Source of the DNA: Acidilutibacter cellobiosedens
Lineage (GTDB): Bacteria; Bacillota; Clostridia; Tissierellales; Acidilutibacteraceae
Direction of reading: 5' to 3'
NCBI RefSeq assembly: GCF_004103715.1
Contig: NZ_CP035282.1
Span: 496,001 to 560,000 of the forward strand
DNA length: 64,000 nucleotides
Below the pieces are notes generated by a model. That model searched no databases. It was given only the letters and a program-made list of their open reading frames with translations, and was not told where the DNA came from. The position numbers were made by a program, and so were the translations under genes. Below, piece after piece: positions 10,105-54,221 of the stretch; the stretch's first letter is position 1, and every line of letters begins with the position of its first letter.

Positions 10105-10282
10105 TCAGATGAGGATAATGAGAGATATTCATTTGGAATGGCCGAAGAAGAAATATAGTGATTTTGTCGAATGACTATAGAAGCTTTCAGGCAAAGGGAT
10201 TGTTATCCGATGGATCTCTGGAAAGATGGAAATCACCGTAGGAGCAAGTGCATCATTTACGATGCTGCAACTCTCAGGTAAA
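10105..10282 (+). ncRNA. Tandem glycine riboswitch (gcvT element)
   Basis: Two aptamers lie in series. The first (about 10108-10197) has GAGAGA, GGCCGAAGAAG and the closing GCTTTCAGGCAAAG. The second (about 10205-10282) has GATCTCTGGAAAG, ATCACCGTAGGAGCAAG and CTCTCAGGTAAAA. These are the conserved GxCGAAGGxGCAA and CTCTCAGGxAAA blocks of the family. It precedes gcvT, and a strong terminator overlaps its end, so glycine binding is expected to allow read-through (ON switch), as known for gcvT leaders. Confidence 0.92.
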
Positions 10283-10340
10283 AATACAGAGATATAATGA
10301 CACCTATATTGTAGTGTCATTATATCTCTGTATTTTTTTG
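10280..10340 (+). terminator. Riboswitch expression-platform terminator
   Basis: A perfect 24-bp stem (10280-10303 with 10314-10337) ends in a T-run. Its 5' arm begins in the AAAA that closes the second aptamer, so aptamer folding and terminator formation can compete. Confidence 0.88.
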
Positions 10341-32730: not shown

Positions 32731-32759
32731 ATTTAAATAAATCATTATATGTGACAAAT

Positions 32760-33018
32760 AATGAAGGGAAGAGTAAGCTTAAAAGAAAACTTTAGAGAGC
32801 CGGGTTTGGTGAAAACCGGTATTGGAAGTTAAGCTGAATATGGCCCCGGAGTTTTACGGCTAAACATGAAAGTGAAGCCGTAACGGAGTTATGTACGTTA
32901 ACACATAAGGTTATTATTTGTAACTTAATGAGGTTTGAACTGCGAAGTTTAAACAAATTAGAGTGGTAACATGAAAAATAAGTCTTCATCTCTATAACAG
33001 AGGGGAAGACTTTTTTAT
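32760..33018 (+). ncRNA. T-box leader of metG (tRNA-Met sensing)
   Basis: The leader has GAGAGCCGGG for Stem I, a specifier region GAATATGGCCCC with an ATG (Met) triplet, and the T-box block AGAGTGGTAACATG (32960-32973), whose TGGT pairs with the tRNA NCCA end. The terminator follows: AAGTCTTC (32980-32987) with GAAGACTT (33005-33012) and a T-run. Uncharged tRNA-Met should favour read-through into metG. The T-box differs from the common AGGGTGGNACCGCG at several positions. Confidence 0.85.
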
Positions 33019-44729: not shown

Positions 44730-45701
44730 GTGATAGATATAAATCAAGAAAGATTGATGCTTAGAGTGCTGGATATGTATTATAATAAGGAACTTTCTCA
44801 GGAAGTTATAGCTAAAAAATTTCATATATCCAGGTCAACCGTATCGAGACTGATTAGTAAAGCTAAAAAACAAGGATATGTAAGCATTCATATTAACTAT
44901 CCGGTGAATAACTGTATTGAATTGGAAGAGAAATTTGAAGGAAAGTTCCACTTAGAAGAAGCTATTATATTGAATGCTACCAGTACGGAATTTTCCGACA
45001 TGGTTGTTCCTCGGGCGGCGGCAGAATATTTACTCAGGATAATTGATGACGATATGTACATATCTATGTCCTGGGGTACAACTCTGAGAAAAACAGTAGA
45101 TAATATTGCTGCTTTAATGCCTGGAGTAAAAAGAATCTTTAAGGGAGTTAAAATTATTCCTCTCTTGGGATCTCCTAAAATGACTTTAAATATTGATGCT
45201 CAGCTTAATTATTCCAATGAGTTGGTTGAAAGGTTGGGGAAAATTTTGAATTCAGCCAGTTATAATTTATCCGCACCGATGATAGTTGAAAATAAGACTG
45301 TCAAAGGGGTATTAGAATCAGAGAAGCAAATAAGTGACATTTTAAATATGGCTAAAAAAGCAGATGTCGCTATTGTAGGAATTGGTTCGGTAGATGAAAA
45401 ATCATCACCATTATTTTCAGGATTGATAACAAAAGAAGAGCAGAAAAAACTTCTTAGTCTGGGGATAGTGGGAGAAATTGCATTTCACTACTATAATGAA
45501 TCGGGAGATATAATATCAACTGAGTTTGATGACAGGTGTATAGGGTTAAAAATAGGTGAAATATTAAATATACCATTGAGAGTAGGAATAGCTTATGGGG
45601 AGAAGAAGATTAAATCAATTCGGGCTGCTCTTAAAGGAAAATTAATAAATGTAATTATAACGGACAGCATTACAGCGGAGAAAATTTTGAAGGAAGGTTA
45701 A
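44730..45701 (+). CDS. SorC-family sugar-binding transcriptional regulator
   Basis: A 323-residue regulator. The N-terminal helix-turn-helix (ELSQEVIAKKFHISRSTVSR, LISKAKKQGYVSI) is followed by a SorC effector domain with ISMSWGTTLRKTVDNI, VKIIPLLGSP, ADVAIVGIGSVDEKSSPLF and RVGIAYGEKKIKSIRAAL. The effector is usually a sugar phosphate, here presumably the hexitol phosphate or its ketose. The gene sits inside the operon it likely controls. Start ATG/GTG choice: GTG 44730 after GAGGTGATAAA. Confidence 0.9.
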   Translation: MIDINQERLMLRVLDMYYNKELSQEVIAKKFHISRSTVSRLISKAKKQGYVSIHINYPVNNCIELEEKFEGKFHLEEAIILNATSTEFSDMVVPRAAAEYLLRIIDDDMYISMSWGTTLRKTVDNIAALMPGVKRIFKGVKIIPLLGSPKMTLNIDAQLNYSNELVERLGKILNSASYNLSAPMIVENKTVKGVLESEKQISDILNMAKKADVAIVGIGSVDEKSSPLFSGLITKEEQKKLLSLGIVGEIAFHYYNESGDIISTEFDDRCIGLKIGEILNIPLRVGIAYGEKKIKSIRAALKGKLINVIITDSITAEKILKEG

Positions 45702-45704
45702 ATT

Positions 45705-46112
45705 ATGAATGATTTTTCTTTCATAGTTTTATTTTCAGCTTTAGGGTTATTCTGGATAATACAAGGAATTTTTACTTATTATCAAATGAAGAATATTAAA
45801 AGGAACTACCAAGATATTTGTAAGAATTATGATAAAGGATATTTTTTCGGAATGGGAAATAAAAAGGGAATACTGTCAAAGGGGTATATAGTATTCCTTG
45901 TGGCTAAAAAAAGCGGAGAAATTGTTCAAGGAAAAATATTAGGCGGAGTGTCGGTTTTCAATAGGTTTAAGAATTATGATGAGATAATTGGTAAGAATAT
46001 CTACAATTATAAGCCGGACAGTACGACTTCAAAATATAAAGCTGTAATTATGGCAATAGAAAATATAAAAAATTATATAGAAGAGAAAAAAATTGAAACT
46101 AAGGAGTGTTAA
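45705..46112 (+). CDS. gutM: GutM-like glucitol operon activator
   Basis: A 135-residue protein with one N-terminal hydrophobic segment (FIVLFSALGLFWIIQGIFTY) and the GutM pattern GYFFGMGNKKGILSKGYIVF, then GEIVQGKILGGVSVFNRFK. In enterobacteria GutM is a positive factor of the glucitol operon; the mechanism is poorly known, and the membrane segment suggests it acts near the PTS permease. It begins 3 bases after the SorC regulator. Confidence 0.85.
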   Translation: MNDFSFIVLFSALGLFWIIQGIFTYYQMKNIKRNYQDICKNYDKGYFFGMGNKKGILSKGYIVFLVAKKSGEIVQGKILGGVSVFNRFKNYDEIIGKNIYNYKPDSTTSKYKAVIMAIENIKNYIEEKKIETKEC

Positions 46113-46113
46113 A

Positions 46114-46974
46114 ATGCTTGTAAATACAAAGGAAATGCTTTTAGATGCAAGAAGGAAAAAATATGGAGTTGTACAAGCCAATGCATGGGATTTAAATAGC
46201 TTGAGAGCTATTTTAAGAGCAAGTGAGGAGAAATCCTCTCCTGTAATAATCGGCCTTGCAGAAGCTCATTTTAAATATATATCTTTAGCTGAAGTTTATA
46301 GTTTAATTAGATACTATGAAAATACGTTTTCTGTTCCGATAGCCCTGCATTTAGATCATGGAAATTCTTATGAAGCAGTGATTGGTGCTATAAGGAATGG
46401 TTTTACTTCTGTAATGATAGATGCATCCGGTGAAAAGTATGAAGAGAATGTAAGAAGGGTTTCCGAAGTGGTAAAGGTTGCTCATGCTTGTGATGTGACT
46501 GTTGAAGCCGAATTAGGACATGTAGGCATGGGAGAGGATTATGAAAAAATAGATGGAGAATTAAAAGATAAGTTTACAAATCCAAAACAGGCCAAAGAAT
46601 TTGTTGAACTAACAGGAGTAGATAGTTTAGCTGTAGCTATTGGAACAGCTCATGGTGAATATAAGGGAAAACCCAAATTGGATTTTGAAAGATTAAAGGA
46701 AATAGCAGATGCAGTAAAAGTCCCATTAGTTCTTCATGGAGGTTCCGGAACGGGAGATGAAGCTCTTAAAAAAACAGTAAAACTGGGGATTTCTAAAATA
46801 AATATTTGTACTGATCTGATGAAAGCGGCAAAGGCTGAGTTTAATTCAGTAATCAATAATAATAATGTAAATTATGCTGATGCGTTACTTGCCGGAGAAG
46901 ATGCAATCAAAAATTGCTTGGAACATTATTTTGACATATTCGAATCATCGAATAAGGTAAATGCCTGCTTGTAA
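46114..46974 (+). CDS. Class II ketose-bisphosphate aldolase (GatY/KbaY/Fba-like)
   Basis: A 286-residue zinc aldolase. It has VVQANAWDLNSLRAIL at the start, the catalytic ALHLDHGNS (Asp and zinc His), VTVEAELGHVG, AVAIGTAHGEYKG, and VLHGGSGTGDEALKKTVKLG, with the last zinc His in LHGGSG. It splits fructose- or tagatose-1,6-bisphosphate. Which of the two is not readable, and no dedicated 6-phosphofructokinase gene is in this operon. ATG 46114 follows AAGGAG; an in-frame ATG at 46093 lies inside gutM. Confidence 0.9.
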   Translation: MLVNTKEMLLDARRKKYGVVQANAWDLNSLRAILRASEEKSSPVIIGLAEAHFKYISLAEVYSLIRYYENTFSVPIALHLDHGNSYEAVIGAIRNGFTSVMIDASGEKYEENVRRVSEVVKVAHACDVTVEAELGHVGMGEDYEKIDGELKDKFTNPKQAKEFVELTGVDSLAVAIGTAHGEYKGKPKLDFERLKEIADAVKVPLVLHGGSGTGDEALKKTVKLGISKINICTDLMKAAKAEFNSVINNNNVNYADALLAGEDAIKNCLEHYFDIFESSNKVNACL

Positions 46975-47098
46975 GCAGGTATTTACCAAAGATAATATTT
47001 AAACCGATAATAGTTATTTATAAAGTATAGTTTTTAAATATAAAGAAATGAAGTGAAATTATTATTTATTAAATATATTAATTCAAGGAGGGAACTAT

Positions 47099-47629
47099 AT
47101 GAATGCGTTATCTAAAGGAGCAGAATATTTTATTTCACTGTTTCAGGCAGGAGGTAAAACTTTAGTAGGACAAATTACCGGTATATTGCCGACCTTGGCA
47201 TGTTTGATGGTAGTTGTAAAAGCAATAATAAAGTTTATCGGTGAAGAAAAGTTGGACAGTTTCGCACAGCACAGTTCGAGTAATACTTTTATGAGACATT
47301 TGATATTACCTGCAATTTCGTGGTTTGTACTTACAAATCCGATGTGTTATTCTATGTCAAAGTTCATGCCGGAAAAATATAAAGCATCCTTTATAGATTC
47401 GACATTTTCATTGGCACATCCTTTTACAGGGTTATTTCCTCATACTGACCCGGGAGAATTATTTATATGGCTGGGAGTAGCTTCGGGGATTCAAAAACTC
47501 GGGCTTCCTATAGGAGGACTTGCAATAAGATATTTGCTGGCAGGATGTGTTTTGGCCTTTATAAGAGGGTCATTAACTGATAAGTTATGGATGTATTTTG
47601 CTAAGAAAAATAATCTTCAAGTTGATTAG
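47099..47629 (+). CDS. srlA: PTS glucitol/sorbitol transporter subunit IIC
   Basis: 176 residues with several membrane segments and the SrlA/GutA blocks EYFISLFQAGGKTLVGQITG, ILPTLACLMVVVKAIIKFIG, RHLILPAISWFVLTNPMC and FTGLFPHTDPGELFIWLGVA. It is the main membrane channel of a sorbitol-type PTS. ATG 47099 follows AAGGAGGGA. A gap of about 120 bases precedes it without a clear promoter, so it is probably part of the same long operon. Confidence 0.93.
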   Translation: MNALSKGAEYFISLFQAGGKTLVGQITGILPTLACLMVVVKAIIKFIGEEKLDSFAQHSSSNTFMRHLILPAISWFVLTNPMCYSMSKFMPEKYKASFIDSTFSLAHPFTGLFPHTDPGELFIWLGVASGIQKLGLPIGGLAIRYLLAGCVLAFIRGSLTDKLWMYFAKKNNLQVD

Positions 47630-47681
47630 TATTTTGATGGAATGAAAACGTTGCTTGTTTTGTTAAAGGAGGAATAATATT

Positions 47682-48074
47682 ATGACTTATAAAACAGTTA
47701 AAGTAGAAAAGGGTAGAGGAGGATGGGGAATTCCTTTACTAATTACGCCTGTACCCGGAAAAGATAAAATATCATCTATAACGGGAGGAGGAATTCATCC
47801 TGTAGCTCAGAAGATTGCCGAACTGTCGGGAGGAACTGCCATTGACGGGTTTAGGCATCCTGTAGCAGATGGTGAAGTAGCCTGTGCTGTTATTGACTGC
47901 GGAGGTACATGTAGATTGGGAATACTTCCGAGTAAAAATATTTTAACGATAAATATTAATGGGGGAGGGCCTTCAGGTCCTTTTGCAAAATTTATAAAGG
48001 AAGGATTATATGTTTCGGGAGTCAGGGTTGAAAATGTGAGTTTAGCGGAAAAACAAACAGGAGGGGAGAAATAA
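47682..48074 (+). CDS. PTS glucitol/sorbitol transporter subunit IIB
   Basis: 130 residues equal to the N-terminal domain of E. coli SrlE: VKVEKGRGGWGIPLLITPVP, AVIDCGGTCRLGILP with the Cys expected to carry the phosphate, and GPSGPFAKFIKEGLYVSGVR. Here it is a free-standing protein that ends where the E. coli fusion linker lies. The next gene begins one base after the stop with its own AGGAGGGG, so the split is genuine and not a frameshift. Confidence 0.92.
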   Translation: MTYKTVKVEKGRGGWGIPLLITPVPGKDKISSITGGGIHPVAQKIAELSGGTAIDGFRHPVADGEVACAVIDCGGTCRLGILPSKNILTININGGGPSGPFAKFIKEGLYVSGVRVENVSLAEKQTGGEK

Positions 48075-48075
48075 A

Positions 48076-48636
48076 ATGGATAATAAAGCTGAAAAAAAAT
48101 CCAATAGCTGGGAAAAAGCGTTAACTTCTTTCGGCAGAGGAGCGGGAGTTTTTACTTCAACATTTTTTCAGGCAGGTAAGGAAACAGTAGAAGTAATTAT
48201 AAAAACAGTTTTGCCTTTTATGTTTTTTGTATCTGCCCTGATAGGGATAATTACAAAGACCGGAATAGGAAATGCTATAGCTAAAGTTTTGAGCCCTCTT
48301 GCATCGACTTTGTGGGGATTAATACTTATATCATTATTCTGTGGCATTCCGGTACTTTCTCCGTTACTGGGACCTGGAGCCGTAATTGCCCAAGTAATAG
48401 GAGTTTTAGTCGGGACAGAAATAGGTCGGGGTAATATTCCCCCACAATACGCGCTTCCTGCACTTTTTGCAATAAATGTTCAAGTTGGATGTGATTTTAT
48501 TCCGGTTGCTATGGGATTAGGAGAAGCTAAACCTGAGACGATAGAATGTGGGGTACCTGCAATTTTAGTTGGAAGATTTTTAACAGGTCCGGTTGCTGTT
48601 TTAATAGGAGTATTATTTAGTATAGGATTATTTTAG
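48076..48636 (+). CDS. PTS glucitol/sorbitol transporter subunit IIC2 (C-terminal SrlE part)
   Basis: A 186-residue membrane protein matching the C-terminal two-thirds of SrlE: TSFGRGAGVFTSTFFQAGKE, VLPFMFFVSALIGIITKTG, PVLSPLLGPGAVIAQVIGVL and IPPQYALPALFAINVQVGCD. With SrlA-like IIC and the separate IIB it builds the permease. The N-terminal KAEKKSNSWEK is linker-like. Confidence 0.92.
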   Translation: MDNKAEKKSNSWEKALTSFGRGAGVFTSTFFQAGKETVEVIIKTVLPFMFFVSALIGIITKTGIGNAIAKVLSPLASTLWGLILISLFCGIPVLSPLLGPGAVIAQVIGVLVGTEIGRGNIPPQYALPALFAINVQVGCDFIPVAMGLGEAKPETIECGVPAILVGRFLTGPVAVLIGVLFSIGLF

Positions 48637-48651
48637 AGGGTATGATATAAA

Positions 48652-49023
48652 TTGAAGAAAATAATATTTGATACTAAAATTGTGGAAATAGGTAAGGATG
48701 CGCAATCAATGCTAAATAATAATCTTCTTATATTGTTTGGAACGGATGCACCTGAAATATTAAGAGATGTATGCTTTATGCATAATAACAAGGATTTAAT
48801 TGGGAAAATCTCAGCCGGAGATGAAGTAGAAATAGACGACCAAATTTATACTGTCGGGTATGTTGGAAATGTTGCCTGTAGTACTTTGAGCACTATTGGG
48901 CATTGTACTTTTGCATTTGGATTAAATAAAAAGCAGTTTCTTCCGGGGACAATATATCTTAATGAAATAGAAATTCCTGAAATTAAACTTGGAACAATAA
49001 TTAAAATAAGTAGTGGTTATTAA
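48652..49023 (+). CDS. srlB: PTS glucitol/sorbitol transporter subunit IIA
   Basis: 123 residues. The phosphorylated His lies in STIGHCTFAFG, after GNVACSTL, matching SrlB. It passes phosphate from HPr to the IIB cysteine. TTG 48652 is the only start giving full length; AGAGGG lies 11 bases upstream. It is the last gene of the operon before a perfect terminator. Confidence 0.92.
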   Translation: MKKIIFDTKIVEIGKDAQSMLNNNLLILFGTDAPEILRDVCFMHNNKDLIGKISAGDEVEIDDQIYTVGYVGNVACSTLSTIGHCTFAFGLNKKQFLPGTIYLNEIEIPEIKLGTIIKISSGY

Positions 49024-49024
49024 T

Positions 49025-49060
49025 AAAAAAACGGAGGTTTTATAAAACCTCCGTTTTTTT
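49025..49060 (+). terminator. Terminator of the hexitol operon
   Basis: A perfect 36-base palindrome (AAAAAAACGGAGGTTTTA and its complement) with T7 at the end. Confidence 0.92.
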
Positions 49061-49126
49061 ATTAAATATGTTCTTTGGTATTTGCTCTAGAATTATCCTT
49101 TCAAAAATCTATTTTAATACATTATT

Positions 49127-49155
49127 CACTAACTAATCTTGCCGTTCATAAGATA
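49127..49155 (+). promoter_or_regulatory. Sigma-K-like promoter of the SpoIID-amidase gene
   Basis: CACT (49127-49130), 16 bases, CATAAGATA (49147-49155). The mother-cell sigma-K consensus is mACm-N16-CATAnnnTA, so only the last -35 base differs. It lies about 33 bases before the ATG, with GGGGGAG in between. No sigma-A promoter is evident. Confidence 0.55.
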
Positions 49156-49187
49156 TATTAATAGTCGTATAAAAGGGGGAGATAATT

Positions 49188-50624
49188 ATGGAGGACTATT
49201 TTTTTGTAAGATATTTTGATGTAGAAAACAATGAAAGAGTGGATAAACCCCTTGAGGAAGTAGTAAAGATATTGTTGCCTTCTCAAATTAATATAGATTT
49301 TCATGTGGAAGCATTAAAAGCTCAGGCTATAATACTTAGGACGAATATAATTCGGAAATCTATTAAACTTGGAGGAAAAGGGTGTGATAAACATGAAGGG
49401 GTTGATTTTTGCAGAAGTAGCCATTGTTATTCCTTCTCTTATTTAGAAGATTACAAAGACCTATGGAAAGATAAGTATGATGAGAATATAAAAAAAATCG
49501 AAACTGCAGTAAAGGAAACAGAAGGGTTGGCATTGACTTTTAATGGGAAACCGATTCTTGCAGAATATCATGAGACTTGCGGAGGCAGTACCCAAAATTC
49601 TGAGAATGTAATAAAATCCAATGTAGTATATCTGAGGAAGGTTTTATGCGAAAATTGCAAGTATTCTGCTAATTGGGAAAGCTATAAGGATTTTAATTTA
49701 GAAGATTTGGAAAAAATTTTTAATACCACTTTCTCAAAAGAAGCTTTATCTGATAAAGGTCAAATAGAAGGATTTTTAGAAGGAATAGAAAGAGATGAAA
49801 ATGGAAGAGTATTGAGTATAGATGTGAATGGAGAAAAATATGAAGGCAATTTTATAGTAGAGAAATTAAAATTGAACTCTAATAAATTTAGTATTCACCC
49901 TTTGACCATAAGGTTTATTACAAGAGGGAAGGGGCATGGGCTTGGTTTTTGTCAGTACGGAGGAAACCAGATGGCAAAAGAAGGCAAGTCGTTTAATGAT
50001 ATATTGGAGTATTATTATACAGGGATAAAAATAGATAAATATCCTCTGCCATGTATAAAATATCCTCTTTATGGAAAAATAATAGTTATAGATCCAGGTC
50101 ATGGAGGGAAAGATTTCGGCCATGTGGGAAACCTGGGATTTAAAGAAAAAGATATAACTTTGAATATTTCAAAAGAAATTAAAGAAGTTCTCGAAAATTA
50201 CGGAGCCAAAGTTTATCTTACGAGAGAAAAAGATGAGGAAGTTCTTCTTATTAAGAGAGCGGAAATAACAAATAATATAAAGCCTGATTTTTTTCTTAGT
50301 TTTCATATGGATTATACTGCAAATTCCGAAGGAAAAGGATGTAAGATATATTATTACAGAAAAGATGAAGAAAGTAAAAAATTGGGCACTATATTTTTAG
50401 ATAATCTTGAAAAAAAATTGTCTGTAGTAAACAAAAATATAAGGGAAGGAAATTTTTATCTTTTGAAATATATTAATGTTAGTTCCTTGATTATAGAAAT
50501 AGGATATTTATCAAATATTGAGGAAGAAAAAAGATATATGGACGAAGAATATATAAAAAAGTTGGCTAATGTAATATGTGAGAGTTTTTTAGAATATTAT
50601 GAATATTATTTTTTATGCTCTTAA
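49188..50624 (+). CDS. SpoIID-like transglycosylase fused to an Amidase_3 domain
   Basis: 478 residues. The SpoIID/LytB part (about 1-285) has EALKAQAIILRTNIIRK with the catalytic Glu, YHETCGGSTQNSEN, and GKGHGLGFCQYGGNQMAKEG. The N-acetylmuramoyl-L-alanine amidase part (about 300-475) has VIDPGHGGKDFGH, a second metal His in FLSFHMDYT and a final Glu in SLIIEIGYLSN. SpoIID cleaves glycan strands stripped of peptides, and amidases strip them, so both steps sit in one chain. There is no signal peptide or membrane helix at the MEDYFFVRYFD start. That and the sigma-K-like promoter recall CwlC-type mother-cell lysis enzymes. Confidence 0.85.
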   Translation: MEDYFFVRYFDVENNERVDKPLEEVVKILLPSQINIDFHVEALKAQAIILRTNIIRKSIKLGGKGCDKHEGVDFCRSSHCYSFSYLEDYKDLWKDKYDENIKKIETAVKETEGLALTFNGKPILAEYHETCGGSTQNSENVIKSNVVYLRKVLCENCKYSANWESYKDFNLEDLEKIFNTTFSKEALSDKGQIEGFLEGIERDENGRVLSIDVNGEKYEGNFIVEKLKLNSNKFSIHPLTIRFITRGKGHGLGFCQYGGNQMAKEGKSFNDILEYYYTGIKIDKYPLPCIKYPLYGKIIVIDPGHGGKDFGHVGNLGFKEKDITLNISKEIKEVLENYGAKVYLTREKDEEVLLIKRAEITNNIKPDFFLSFHMDYTANSEGKGCKIYYYRKDEESKKLGTIFLDNLEKKLSVVNKNIREGNFYLLKYINVSSLIIEIGYLSNIEEEKRYMDEEYIKKLANVICESFLEYYEYYFLCS

Positions 50625-50667
50625 ACATTGACAATAAAACAAAACAATAGTATAATATTTATTTTAT

Positions 50668-50696
50668 TTGACACATTGGACAACTTATGATATAAT
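50668..50696 (+). promoter_or_regulatory. Consensus sigma-A promoter of veg
   Basis: TTGACA (50668-50673), 17 bases, TATAAT (50691-50696), with TG two bases before the -10. This is the strongest promoter in the window, as known for Bacillus veg. The leader contains CTCCTAAATATAGGAG, a small hairpin. Confidence 0.88.
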
Positions 50697-50770
50697 GAAC
50701 TTTGTGGGTGTCCCATTGCACTCCTTCGGCCTCCTAAATATAGGAGAGTATCAAAGGGTAGGTGATTACG

Positions 50771-51040
50771 TTGTTAGAAAAAAACGGATTGTTGAAAATT
50801 CGTAAAGATGTTGAGGATTGTATAGGCAAGAAAGTAATACTCAAAGCAAATAAGGGAAGAAAAAAAACTACTGTGAGAGAAGGAATAATTGAAAGTGCTT
50901 ATCCAAGCATATTTGTCGTAAAAATTTGCAATCAATATGATAATACTCGCAGGGTATCATACACCTATTCAGATATATTAACAGCAACGGTAGAAATAAC
51001 TGTATGTGATGGAGAAGAGAGAAGAATAATGATTAGTTAA
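50771..51040 (+). CDS. veg: Veg protein
   Basis: An 89-residue protein with the Veg pattern IRKDVEDCIGKKVILKANKG, then RKKTTVREGIIESAYPSIFVV and RRVSYTYSDILTATVEITV. In Bacillus, Veg is abundant, influences biofilm formation and lies near ksgA and ispE, as here. TTG 50771 is preferred (AGGTGA 5 bases upstream); GTG 50762 overlaps that site. Repeat units F-H begin 20 bases after the stop. Confidence 0.93.
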   Translation: MLEKNGLLKIRKDVEDCIGKKVILKANKGRKKTTVREGIIESAYPSIFVVKICNQYDNTRRVSYTYSDILTATVEITVCDGEERRIMIS

Positions 51041-51470: not shown

Positions 51471-52316
51471 ATGACGACGAGAGAAAAAATGAGGAGAGAG
51501 AGGCAAAGGAAGAGAAGAATAAGATTTGGGTTTTTTCTTATAGCTCTAACAGCGGTAACTATATTTTTAGGGGTAAAAATCGGAGAATTTATACGAAAGG
51601 CTGATTTCGGTGATAAAAATAGTATAGGGGCTTCCATGGAAGTAAAAGAAGGAGAAGAAGCAGATGACAAAAATGACGATAAAAATGGTGAAGAAGTGTC
51701 TTATGAAGGAGAAGCCTTAAATGTGATAGAAAGAAACGGAATTACCAAAGTCTATAAGGAAAAGGATTTAAGCAGTGAAGTGATATATGAATTAAATGAT
51801 CATGATAAAGTGGAACTATTAGAAACTTTGCCTTTTGGCTGGTTTAAAATAAAACTTCAAAATGGACAAACTGGCTTTGCCGATACCAGATACATACGTT
51901 CCAGAAGTATACCGCCTTTTGAATATGACGAAAATTCTTCAGAATGGGTATTGATGTTTACGGAAGAAGATCAAACTTTAAAGATATATAAAAATGGAAA
52001 AATCGAAAAGACATCCCTTGGTTCCAGCGGAGAATGGGATAATTTCACTCCTAAGGGAGTGTTTCAAATAGAAAAGGACAGGAGAGGAGATTGGGCTTAT
52101 ATTCCAAGGTTTGAACAGGGGATTAAGTATTGGGTAGGATTTAAGGATAGTTATTTATTTCATTCTTTGCCTTTTGATGAAAATAAGAAATTAATTCAGG
52201 AAGAAGCAGAAAAACTTGGAACTCCGGCAAGCCATGGCTGTATAAGACTTCCTGTAGAGATAGCAAAATATATATACGACAATGTGCCTGAAGGTTCAAT
52301 AGTTATTATAAAATAA
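51471..52316 (+). CDS. L,D-transpeptidase (YkuD) with SH3-like domain
   Basis: A 281-residue membrane-anchored enzyme. It has a very basic cytoplasmic N-terminus (REKMRRERQRKRRIRFG), one membrane helix (about 19-40), an acidic linker, and a bacterial SH3-like domain (about 82-142: GITKVYKEKDLSSEVIYEL, GWFKIKLQNGQTGFADTRYI). The C-terminal YkuD domain has the active-site block HSLPFDENK...ASHGCIRLP with the catalytic Cys. It makes 3-3 cross-links in peptidoglycan or attaches proteins. ATG 51471 follows GTGAGGTG. Confidence 0.92.
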   Translation: MTTREKMRRERQRKRRIRFGFFLIALTAVTIFLGVKIGEFIRKADFGDKNSIGASMEVKEGEEADDKNDDKNGEEVSYEGEALNVIERNGITKVYKEKDLSSEVIYELNDHDKVELLETLPFGWFKIKLQNGQTGFADTRYIRSRSIPPFEYDENSSEWVLMFTEEDQTLKIYKNGKIEKTSLGSSGEWDNFTPKGVFQIEKDRRGDWAYIPRFEQGIKYWVGFKDSYLFHSLPFDENKKLIQEEAEKLGTPASHGCIRLPVEIAKYIYDNVPEGSIVIIK

Positions 52317-52554: not shown

Positions 52555-52601
52555 CATAATATATTTTGACTATAATAAAAAAATTTATTATAGTCAAAAT
52601 A
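52555..52601 (+). promoter_or_regulatory. Sporulation-type -10 box and perfect inverted repeat before the SPOCS-LysM gene
   Basis: CATAATATA (52555-52563) fits the CATAnnnTA -10 of sigma-E/sigma-K promoters, though the -35 (AATA at 52535) is a weak fit. Directly overlapping, 52562-52579 and 52584-52601 form a perfect 18-bp inverted repeat with a 4-base loop and no T-run. It could be an operator or an mRNA 5'-end hairpin. Confidence 0.45.
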
Positions 52602-52679
52602 CAGTACTTTTTTTGGACATTAACTCATATACTTCTCATAGGATATAGATATACAAATGGTATCGATAGGAGGGGTAAT

Positions 52680-54221
52680 ATGGCTGTAGAGCTTGTAAAG
52701 GACATACTTAAAGTAGATGAATTGAAAGGAAAAGACGAGACTCAAACTATGGTTGAAGCGGAAATATATTTGAATCAATCTAAACCGGAAATAGATAAAA
52801 TACTGTGGGTAGATGGGAAAGCTCAAATAACAAATTCAAAGATTGTTCAGGATAAAGTAATTATTAATGGTATTGTTAAATTTAAAGCAGTATATAAGTC
52901 GAAGGAAGAAAATCCAAGGATATTTAAATTAGAAACAGTTCAAGACTTTAGAAATGAAGTAGAGCTTGAGGGAATAAATGAAAATATGACTTCTGATGTA
53001 AAGATAGGGCTGGAATATATAGAATATGAGTTATTAGATGAAAGAAAAGTGGGACTGAAGTCATTGGTAAATATACAAACTAAAGTAGGGCGAACCAACA
53101 CATTGGAAGTTATAAAGGATATAAGAGGAGGAGAAGATACTCAAATACTTAAAGAAAAGATTAAATATAACGATGTAATAGGCATGAAAGAATCTTATAC
53201 GATAGTTAAAGAAGCCTTTGAGATAGAAGAGGGGATGCCACCTATAGATGATATATTGAAGGCCGAATTAAATACATATGAAAAAGAATCTAAAGTGGTG
53301 GACGGAAGAGTTATAATTTCCGGAATATTGGATTGCTTAATTGTTTATAATGGCGGAGGAAATATTAATTCCTTAAAAAAAGAAATATCTTTCAATCATT
53401 TCCTTGAAATAGAAGGAGCGGAGAAGGATTTAAACTGTCAGATTAAAATGGAAGTCGAAAGTGTGGAATATGAAATAAAAGAAGATTCAGAGGGTATTTC
53501 AAGAATACTGGAGCTGGAATCAAAAGTTAAAATATTGGGCAAGGTTTATGACAACAGAGAGAAGGAAATAGTACTTGATATGTACTCTACGGATCAGAAT
53601 ATCAATTTGAAAAAGGAAAAGACTTTGCTGCTGGAGAATGTCAAGAATCTTATATGCAGAGAGACCGTTACAAGAGAAATAGATATGTTGGGGGATATAC
53701 TTACAATCGAAGGCCGTGTTTCAATATTAGACAGTAGATATATAGAGGGAAAGGTAGTAACGGAAGGAACTGTTAATTTAAATATATTGTACGTTGAAGA
53801 GAATACCGGCGAAATAAAAAATAGTCAGGAAGAAATTCCCTTCAAGTTTTATAACGATATAGATGAATTAAAAGGGAATATATCCGTAGAAGTGGAGAGC
53901 ATTTTAGAACAAATATCTTATAAAGTCAACGACGGAGGATTAAATATAGAAGCTGCGGTTAAGAATTCAATCATGTTGAACAGAGAAAAAGAAATAGATA
54001 TAATAGTGGATTTGGAAGAAACGGGAGAAGCTTTAAATAAGAAAAACAGGCCGAGCATTACTGTATATATAGTTCAGAAAGACGATATTTTGTGGGATAT
54101 AGCTAAGCGATACCATACTACGGTGAAAGAAATAATGTCAGCAAATAATATCACATCACCCCAAATTCTTATGCCGGGAGAAAAAATAATAATTGAAAAA
54201 CATGTGGATACGCAATTCTAA
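52680..54221 (+). CDS. SPOCS (DUF3794) and LysM spore-coat protein
   Basis: 513 residues built of repeated SPOCS/DUF3794-type segments (about 1-460): the pattern of an alpha-helix followed by EAEIYLNQSKPEIDKILWVD, VIINGIVKFKAVYKSKE recurs, for example as GILDCLIVYNGG and GTVNLNILYVEE. A C-terminal LysM follows (about 465-510: ITVYIVQKDDILWDIAKRYH, ANNITSPQILMPGEKIII). Such proteins, related to SpoVID/SafA-type coat morphogens, bind forespore-surface peptidoglycan and organise the coat. ATG 52680 follows AGGAGGGG; the frame is open earlier without a ribosome site. Confidence 0.9.
   Translation: MAVELVKDILKVDELKGKDETQTMVEAEIYLNQSKPEIDKILWVDGKAQITNSKIVQDKVIINGIVKFKAVYKSKEENPRIFKLETVQDFRNEVELEGINENMTSDVKIGLEYIEYELLDERKVGLKSLVNIQTKVGRTNTLEVIKDIRGGEDTQILKEKIKYNDVIGMKESYTIVKEAFEIEEGMPPIDDILKAELNTYEKESKVVDGRVIISGILDCLIVYNGGGNINSLKKEISFNHFLEIEGAEKDLNCQIKMEVESVEYEIKEDSEGISRILELESKVKILGKVYDNREKEIVLDMYSTDQNINLKKEKTLLLENVKNLICRETVTREIDMLGDILTIEGRVSILDSRYIEGKVVTEGTVNLNILYVEENTGEIKNSQEEIPFKFYNDIDELKGNISVEVESILEQISYKVNDGGLNIEAAVKNSIMLNREKEIDIIVDLEETGEALNKKNRPSITVYIVQKDDILWDIAKRYHTTVKEIMSANNITSPQILMPGEKIIIEKHVDTQF

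Follow-up and report, generated by a model that had tools for sequence, protein, structure and literature searches.

What role could a protein play in sporulation when it combines SpoIID and Amidase_3 domains in a single chain and carries no export signal? This question was raised by one gene in a 64,000-nt stretch of the Acidilutibacter cellobiosedens genome (NZ_CP035282.1, positions 496,001 to 560,000), here called the window. All coordinates below are window positions unless a contig is named. The original prediction read the gene as coding for a late mother-cell lysis enzyme with two fused activities, rather than an engulfment enzyme.

Architecture and distribution of the fusion

49188..50624, + strand: SpoIID-Amidase_3 fusion gene, 478 aa, no signal peptide (open reading frame and profile matches)
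49224..50039, + strand: SpoIID-like domain, residues 13-284 (TIGR02870), with Gln33 and Cys 131, 154, 157 and 255
50082..50585, + strand: Amidase_3 domain (Pfam), residues 299-466, with H305, E320, H373 and E437

The gene starts with an ATG preceded by a strong ribosome-binding site, AGGGGGAG. An in-frame stop about five codons upstream closes the frame, which leaves no room for an earlier start that would add a signal peptide. Pfam placed SpoIID at residues 21-118 with 52.8 bits (family cut-off 23), and Amidase_3 at residues 299-466 with 164.7 bits (cut-off 27). The TIGR02870 model (spore_II_D) scored 226.5 over residues 13-284, slightly below its cut-off of 234.75. Pfam gave no match to a SPOR domain in the fusion. 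The single-sequence AlphaFold model had a pLDDT of 32 and was set aside.

Within the order (60 genomes, the organism's own and 59 relatives), full-length or nearly full-length fusions of 40-58% identity were found in 29 of the 59 relatives. A separate SpoIID, 29-35% identical to the query, was listed in 28 of these 29, with none listed for G024. The search of the class covered 291 genomes, own included, and found fusions in at least 18 of the other 290, none of the 18 within the window's order; this is a lower bound because the search used an E threshold of 1e-60 and considered no more than five candidates in each genome. Residue counts cover 47 of the 48 fusions, leaving out L079, which lies at a contig start and whose frame was not recovered. 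They were compared with 42 stand-alone SpoIID/LytB proteins, the loci of the best-scoring matches and not all of them, a sample biased toward typical members. In a quick tree search of these 47 and 42 domains, from which the residues of interest were omitted, the fusions formed one clade on a branch with an SH-aLRT of 100. The two halves of the fusions were about equally conserved, with mean pairwise identities of 45.7% and 44.2%. Since the relatives are not independent of one another, genus-level counts are also given.

SpoIVA was present in all 29 fusion-bearing relatives of the order, and the fusion occurred in none of the 20 relatives lacking SpoIVA (Fisher p 1.4e-8 over the 59 relatives, relatedness ignored). 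It was also absent from 10 of the 39 SpoIVA-bearing relatives, and is therefore not a core part of sporulation. Hidden or decayed copies in these ten genomes were considered and rejected, as tblastn with the fusions as queries was negative for 1.5 kb on either side of veg, which was located in nine of them and not in G044. Of the 18 class genomes with the fusion, 17 had SpoIVA; the exception, G138, gave no SpoIVA match. A search of viral contigs returned no relative of the fusion, and a search of genome contigs returned one locus, in Priestia taiwanensis, with a SpoIID match (residues 21-282) and no amidase half. SpoIID relatives are stated in general terms to differ in domain architecture (PMC6934232), and we found no description of a SpoIID-Amidase_3 fusion in the open-licence PMC literature.

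The missing export signal proved to be a property of the clade. In the first 60 residues of the window protein, the best 17-residue Kyte-Doolittle mean was 0.99, which gives no signal-like segment. The same measure stayed at or below 1.6 in 46 of the 47 fusions and exceeded 1.6 in 35 of the 42 stand-alone proteins. The one exception, L033 (1.73), had its segment starting at residue 22, within the SpoIID domain. For L081 and L084, the assigned start codon possibly lies too far upstream. The fusion thus has neither the membrane anchor nor the export signal typical of a SpoIID transglycosylase, unlike the genome's separate SpoIID, whose N-terminus is hydrophobic. The closed frame, the low hydrophobicity and the comparison across the clade uphold the claim that the protein lacks an export signal, and the profile matches uphold the claim of a single chain with SpoIID at the N-terminus and the amidase at the C-terminus.

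The SpoIID half has lost its catalytic Glu and gained four cysteines

49284..49286, + strand: codon for Gln33, the counterpart of catalytic E101 in C. difficile SpoIID (phmmer alignment)

The window protein has Gln33 where a SpoIID transglycosylase has its catalytic Glu. In C. difficile SpoIID, the E101A mutation is reported to abolish activity in vitro and to fail to complement sporulation (PMC6221140). Across the 47 fusions, this position was occupied by Q in 24, N in 10, E in 6, S in 4, and Y, D and R in one each. Glu was therefore missing in 41 of 47 fusions; it was present in all 42 stand-alone proteins. The six fusions that keep it comprise four members of one subclade, L021 and L087. 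These replacements make it unlikely that two activities were fused, as had been proposed. The SpoIID of the chlamydial Waddlia reportedly depends on an Asp (PMC6635528), and the absent Glu therefore makes glycan cleavage less likely without excluding it. On these residues, the SpoIID domain of the fusion probably has a function other than glycan cleavage.

Four cysteines showed the opposite pattern. All 47 fusions had C131, C154, C157 and C255, and none of the 42 stand-alone proteins had Cys at these positions, where they carried S (one N), S or D, E or S, and S, respectively. D203 was likewise specific to the fusions. The residues that make up the zinc site in C. difficile SpoIID were kept in part, with C75 retained in 40 of 47. 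The cysteine set is conserved better than either catalytic centre, since Glu remains in 6 of 47 fusions and the amidase quartet described below is complete in 31 of 47. Their invariance and the CxxC spacing suggest that the four cysteines possibly form a shared metal site in the SpoIID domain, metal binding being a guess.

A further group of SpoIID proteins was seen in four f19 genomes of the order that have no fusion (L174 to L177). Within the stretches examined, each has one or two frames of 467-485 aa with a shortened SpoIID domain. These proteins keep the Glu in the matching motif, as read by eye, and the one that was scanned had peptidoglycan-binding repeats and no Amidase_3 match. They are perhaps SleC-like.

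The amidase centre is intact here and lost in two lineages

H305, E320, H373 and E437, which we take to be the three zinc ligands (H, E, H) and the catalytic Glu of Amidase_3, are all present in the window protein. The quartet was complete in 31 of the 47 fusions. In four others, only E437 was changed (to Asp), and twelve had lost more. All three f11 fusions (L020, L021 and L031) had Ser in place of H373 and Phe in place of E437, and one also had Gln in place of H305. In f39, nine proteins without the amidase centre were counted (L077, L078 and L080-L086). From the sequences, the losses in f11 and f39 were apparently independent, and full-length proteins were kept in both. Pfam still detected Amidase_3 in the two residue-losing copies that were scanned, L020 and L082.

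The genome also encodes a 251-aa protein of the CwlC type, with Amidase_3 and SPOR domains and no signal peptide (L037; C1:2404120-2404623, minus strand). From its architecture, it is a candidate for mother-cell lysis. No sigma-K-type motif with an AC -35 element was seen upstream of it, which counts against a role as a sigma-K lysis enzyme.

A conserved sigma-K-type promoter

49127..49130, + strand: -35 element CACT, sigma-K type
49147..49155, + strand: -10 element CATAAGATA, sigma-K type
about 49021..49065, + strand: terminator hairpin ending the upstream sorbitol PTS operon and insulating the fusion gene
50628..50696, + strand: two sigma-A-type promoters upstream of veg, each matching the consensus at 12 of 12 positions, 40 nt apart

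With a terminator upstream and the sigma-A promoters of veg downstream, the fusion gene looks like its own transcription unit. Its promoter reads CACT, N16, CATAAGATA, with the -10 element 32 nt upstream of the ATG. For comparison among relatives we used AC and CATANNNTA, which we take to be the sigma-K consensus letters, together with a sigma-E pattern that is likewise our assumption, and counted matches against first-order Markov resamples (200 each). The -10 pattern CATANNNTA occurred in 25 of 30 upstream regions of the order, own included (shuffle mean 7.1; reverse strand 2 of 30). Adding the -35 element left AC-N16..19-CATANNNTA in the same number of regions, 25 of 30, absent from five (shuffle mean 1.2; reverse strand 0 of 30). 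The form CAC-N15..18-CATANNNTA was found in 23 of 30 (shuffle mean 0.20, maximum 2; reverse strand 0 of 30), and its recurrence upstream of the fusions exceeds chance. By genus, at least one member carried the CAC form in 16 of 21 genera of the order and the AC form in 18 of 21. The sigma-E-type pattern was seen in none of the 30 regions (shuffle mean 0.9). In C. difficile, sigma-E and sigma-K promoters are reported to have similar -10 sequences and distinct -35 sequences (PMC3789822).

The genome encodes sigma-K itself, with a score of 359.7 bits against a cut-off of 298.65, which none of 14 control genomes exceeded. A scan of the whole genome with the strict pattern gave 13 matches, and 3 for the reversed control. 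Apart from the match at the fusion, ten lay opposite a long open frame, one lay inside a same-strand frame, and one preceded L110. The L110 site, the sole other candidate, has only a doubtful 90-aa frame downstream. The scan says nothing in favour of a wider regulon.

The locus and its neighbours in the class

50762..51040, + strand: veg (PF06257), the syntenic neighbour
51471-52316: L,D-transpeptidase (YkuD) carrying an SH3 domain, encoded between veg and sipL
52566..54221, + strand: SipL (SPOCS and LysM domains), a spore coat morphogenesis gene

Of 40 neighbourhoods (29 from the order and 11 from the class), 38 had veg downstream of the fusion in the same orientation, within 250 nt in 34 of those as measured from alignment ends. 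The gene was not found beside L148 and L150. A match to the L,D-transpeptidase followed veg in about half of the neighbourhoods of the order. In the window, sipL is followed by a gene that we take to be ispE, from its kinase domains, and by a gerA-type gene.

In the class, the motif was present in only 2 of 18 regions directly upstream of the fusion, probably because yabG occupies that place. Of the 18 class fusion genomes, 15 had yabG directly upstream in the same orientation, with tblastn gaps of 4-121 nt. In G231 it was on another contig, and G262 and G195 gave no match. Of nine yabG-fusion loci tested, six had the form AC-N16..19-CATANNNTA upstream of yabG and three lacked it (shuffle mean 0.33, maximum 4); among 11 genomes with yabG only, five had it and six lacked it (shuffle mean 0.20, maximum 2). 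C. difficile yabG is reported to be under sigma-K control (PMC3789822), and YabG is elsewhere described as SigK-regulated (PMC10747680). The place of yabG directly upstream in 15 class genomes lends independent support to late mother-cell expression. Together with the near-consensus promoter at the right distance, which held up on inspection and is conserved in 23 of 30 regions, it supports the sigma-K control first proposed, as far as promoter pattern and gene order can.

YabG had no match in the 60 genomes of the order, own included. We considered YabG as a mutually exclusive replacement for the fusion and rejected this, as the two adjoin each other in class genomes. The simplest reading is an ancestral order yabG-fusion-veg, from which the window's order would have lost yabG while the fusion retained a promoter of the same type.

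Two other parts of the window were recorded. The sorbitol (glucitol) PTS operon at 44730-49023 lies directly upstream, ends at the terminator and showed no sign of a link to the fusion. Tandem glycine riboswitch aptamers and a T-box leader were found at 10109-10293 and 32752-32996.

Proposed function and alternative explanations

We tentatively favour, at slightly under even confidence, a spore-envelope protein that is made late and whose SpoIID module is non-catalytic. A late mother-cell promoter and a missing signal imply that it is made in the cytosol of the mother cell, apart from peptidoglycan, and the coat-gene setting, with yabG in relatives and sipL here, points to spore-envelope assembly. 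The fusion would be produced beside YabG, or without it in this organism, and, judging from its neighbours, would probably be deposited with the coat on the forespore surface. Its SpoIID domain would no longer cut glycan. Rebuilt around a four-cysteine site (zinc or iron-sulphur), it might serve the amidase domain next to it in binding or regulation. Contact with peptidoglycan, either the cortex or the old mother-cell wall, would come only after the intervening membranes had failed. A bolder proposal, which we regard as doubtful though worth stating, has the old transglycosylase active site converted into a four-cysteine metal centre (zinc or iron-sulphur) and takes that centre itself as the conserved function, in place of glycan or amide cleavage. 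The protein, encoded in the yabG locus and resident in the mother-cell cytosol, would then be a late-sporulation sensor, regulator or new spore-envelope enzyme made from two peptidoglycan-hydrolase folds. If these ideas are right, at least half of a protein that would be annotated as a peptidoglycan hydrolase of sporulation is a pseudoenzyme, and the conserved cysteine site points to a late stage of sporulation, so far unstudied, that is shared by many genera, 21 in the order alone. The arrangement yabG-fusion-veg would also serve as a marker of a sigma-K locus in which none of the 60 genomes of the window's order gave a match to YabG itself.

In an amended form, the original prediction of a mother-cell lysis enzyme has the protein as an amidase that, like CwlC, is sigma-K-dependent and signal-less and would digest the wall from within as the mother cell collapses, with the altered SpoIID domain targeting or enhancing the amidase. 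The sigma-K-type promoter, the missing export signal and the intact H305, E320, H373 and E437 agree with it, so the late and signal-less parts of the claim stand. The lysis part is weakened and now seems rather unlikely, because the protein persists in f11 (3 of 3) and in nine f39 proteins after the amidase centre is lost, and because a second signal-less protein, the Amidase_3-SPOR protein L037, is encoded in the genome. The neighbouring coat genes and the lost glycan-cutting residue also speak against it. Patchy loss of catalytic residues in a protein with no secretion signal is what has been reported for mycobacterial CwlM (PMC4946905), and the fusion could by analogy be a cytosolic regulator that senses or controls the supply of wall precursors, here for cortex synthesis in the mother cell. 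This is quite improbable given that the amidase quartet remains complete in 31 of 47 fusions.

A germination enzyme would fit the coat-gene neighbourhood, and C. difficile YabG reportedly processes Pre-pro-SleC (PMC10747680), SleC being described as having dual activity (PMC3533761). We see only a slim chance for it, as Glu is lost in 41 of 47 fusions and the amidase centre in two lineages, and it is the f19 proteins, with SpoIID and peptidoglycan-binding repeats and, in the one scanned, no Amidase_3, that keep the Glu. Homology to SpoIID is what speaks for a second engulfment enzyme of the SpoIID/SpoIIP kind, to which we give almost no credence. The genome has a separate SpoIID with a hydrophobic N-terminus, the fusion has neither signal nor anchor, the sigma-E-type pattern is found in 0 of 30 upstream regions, and the catalytic Glu is gone. 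On this point the original prediction, which had set engulfment aside, is supported.

Comparison with known systems

SpoIID structures were described by Nocadello in 2016, according to PMC6221140. The SpoIID/LytB family (PDB 5txu, 5i1t and 4rwr) shares the same domain over fusion residues 16-283, with E values down to 1.4e-36. The fusion differs from it in the replaced Glu, four additional invariant cysteines, the attached amidase, the lack of an export signal or anchor, and the late promoter.

CwlC combines Amidase_3 with SPOR and has no signal. The fusion resembles it in having a signal-less Amidase_3 domain and, from the promoter pattern and its conservation, probable sigma-K control, but has an N-terminal SpoIID domain, no SPOR domain, and a catalytic centre that is not kept across the clade. 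The CwlD model (TIGR02883) was the top-scoring NCBIfam amidase model for the fusion; the 147 bits fell below its cut-off of 221.55, and the model contains no SpoIID domain. CwlM belongs to Mycobacterium, a different phylum from the host of the fusion, and to our knowledge has no SpoIID domain. It is reported to be a cytoplasmic homologue of peptidoglycan amidases, with no signal and patchy zinc residues, that acts as a regulator (PMC4946905). SleC, the clostridial cortex-lytic enzyme, is reportedly both a lytic transglycosylase and an amidase (PMC3533761), and is likened to the fusion by this description. YabG is a protease unrelated to the fusion, but shares its locus beside veg, its promoter type and its programme.
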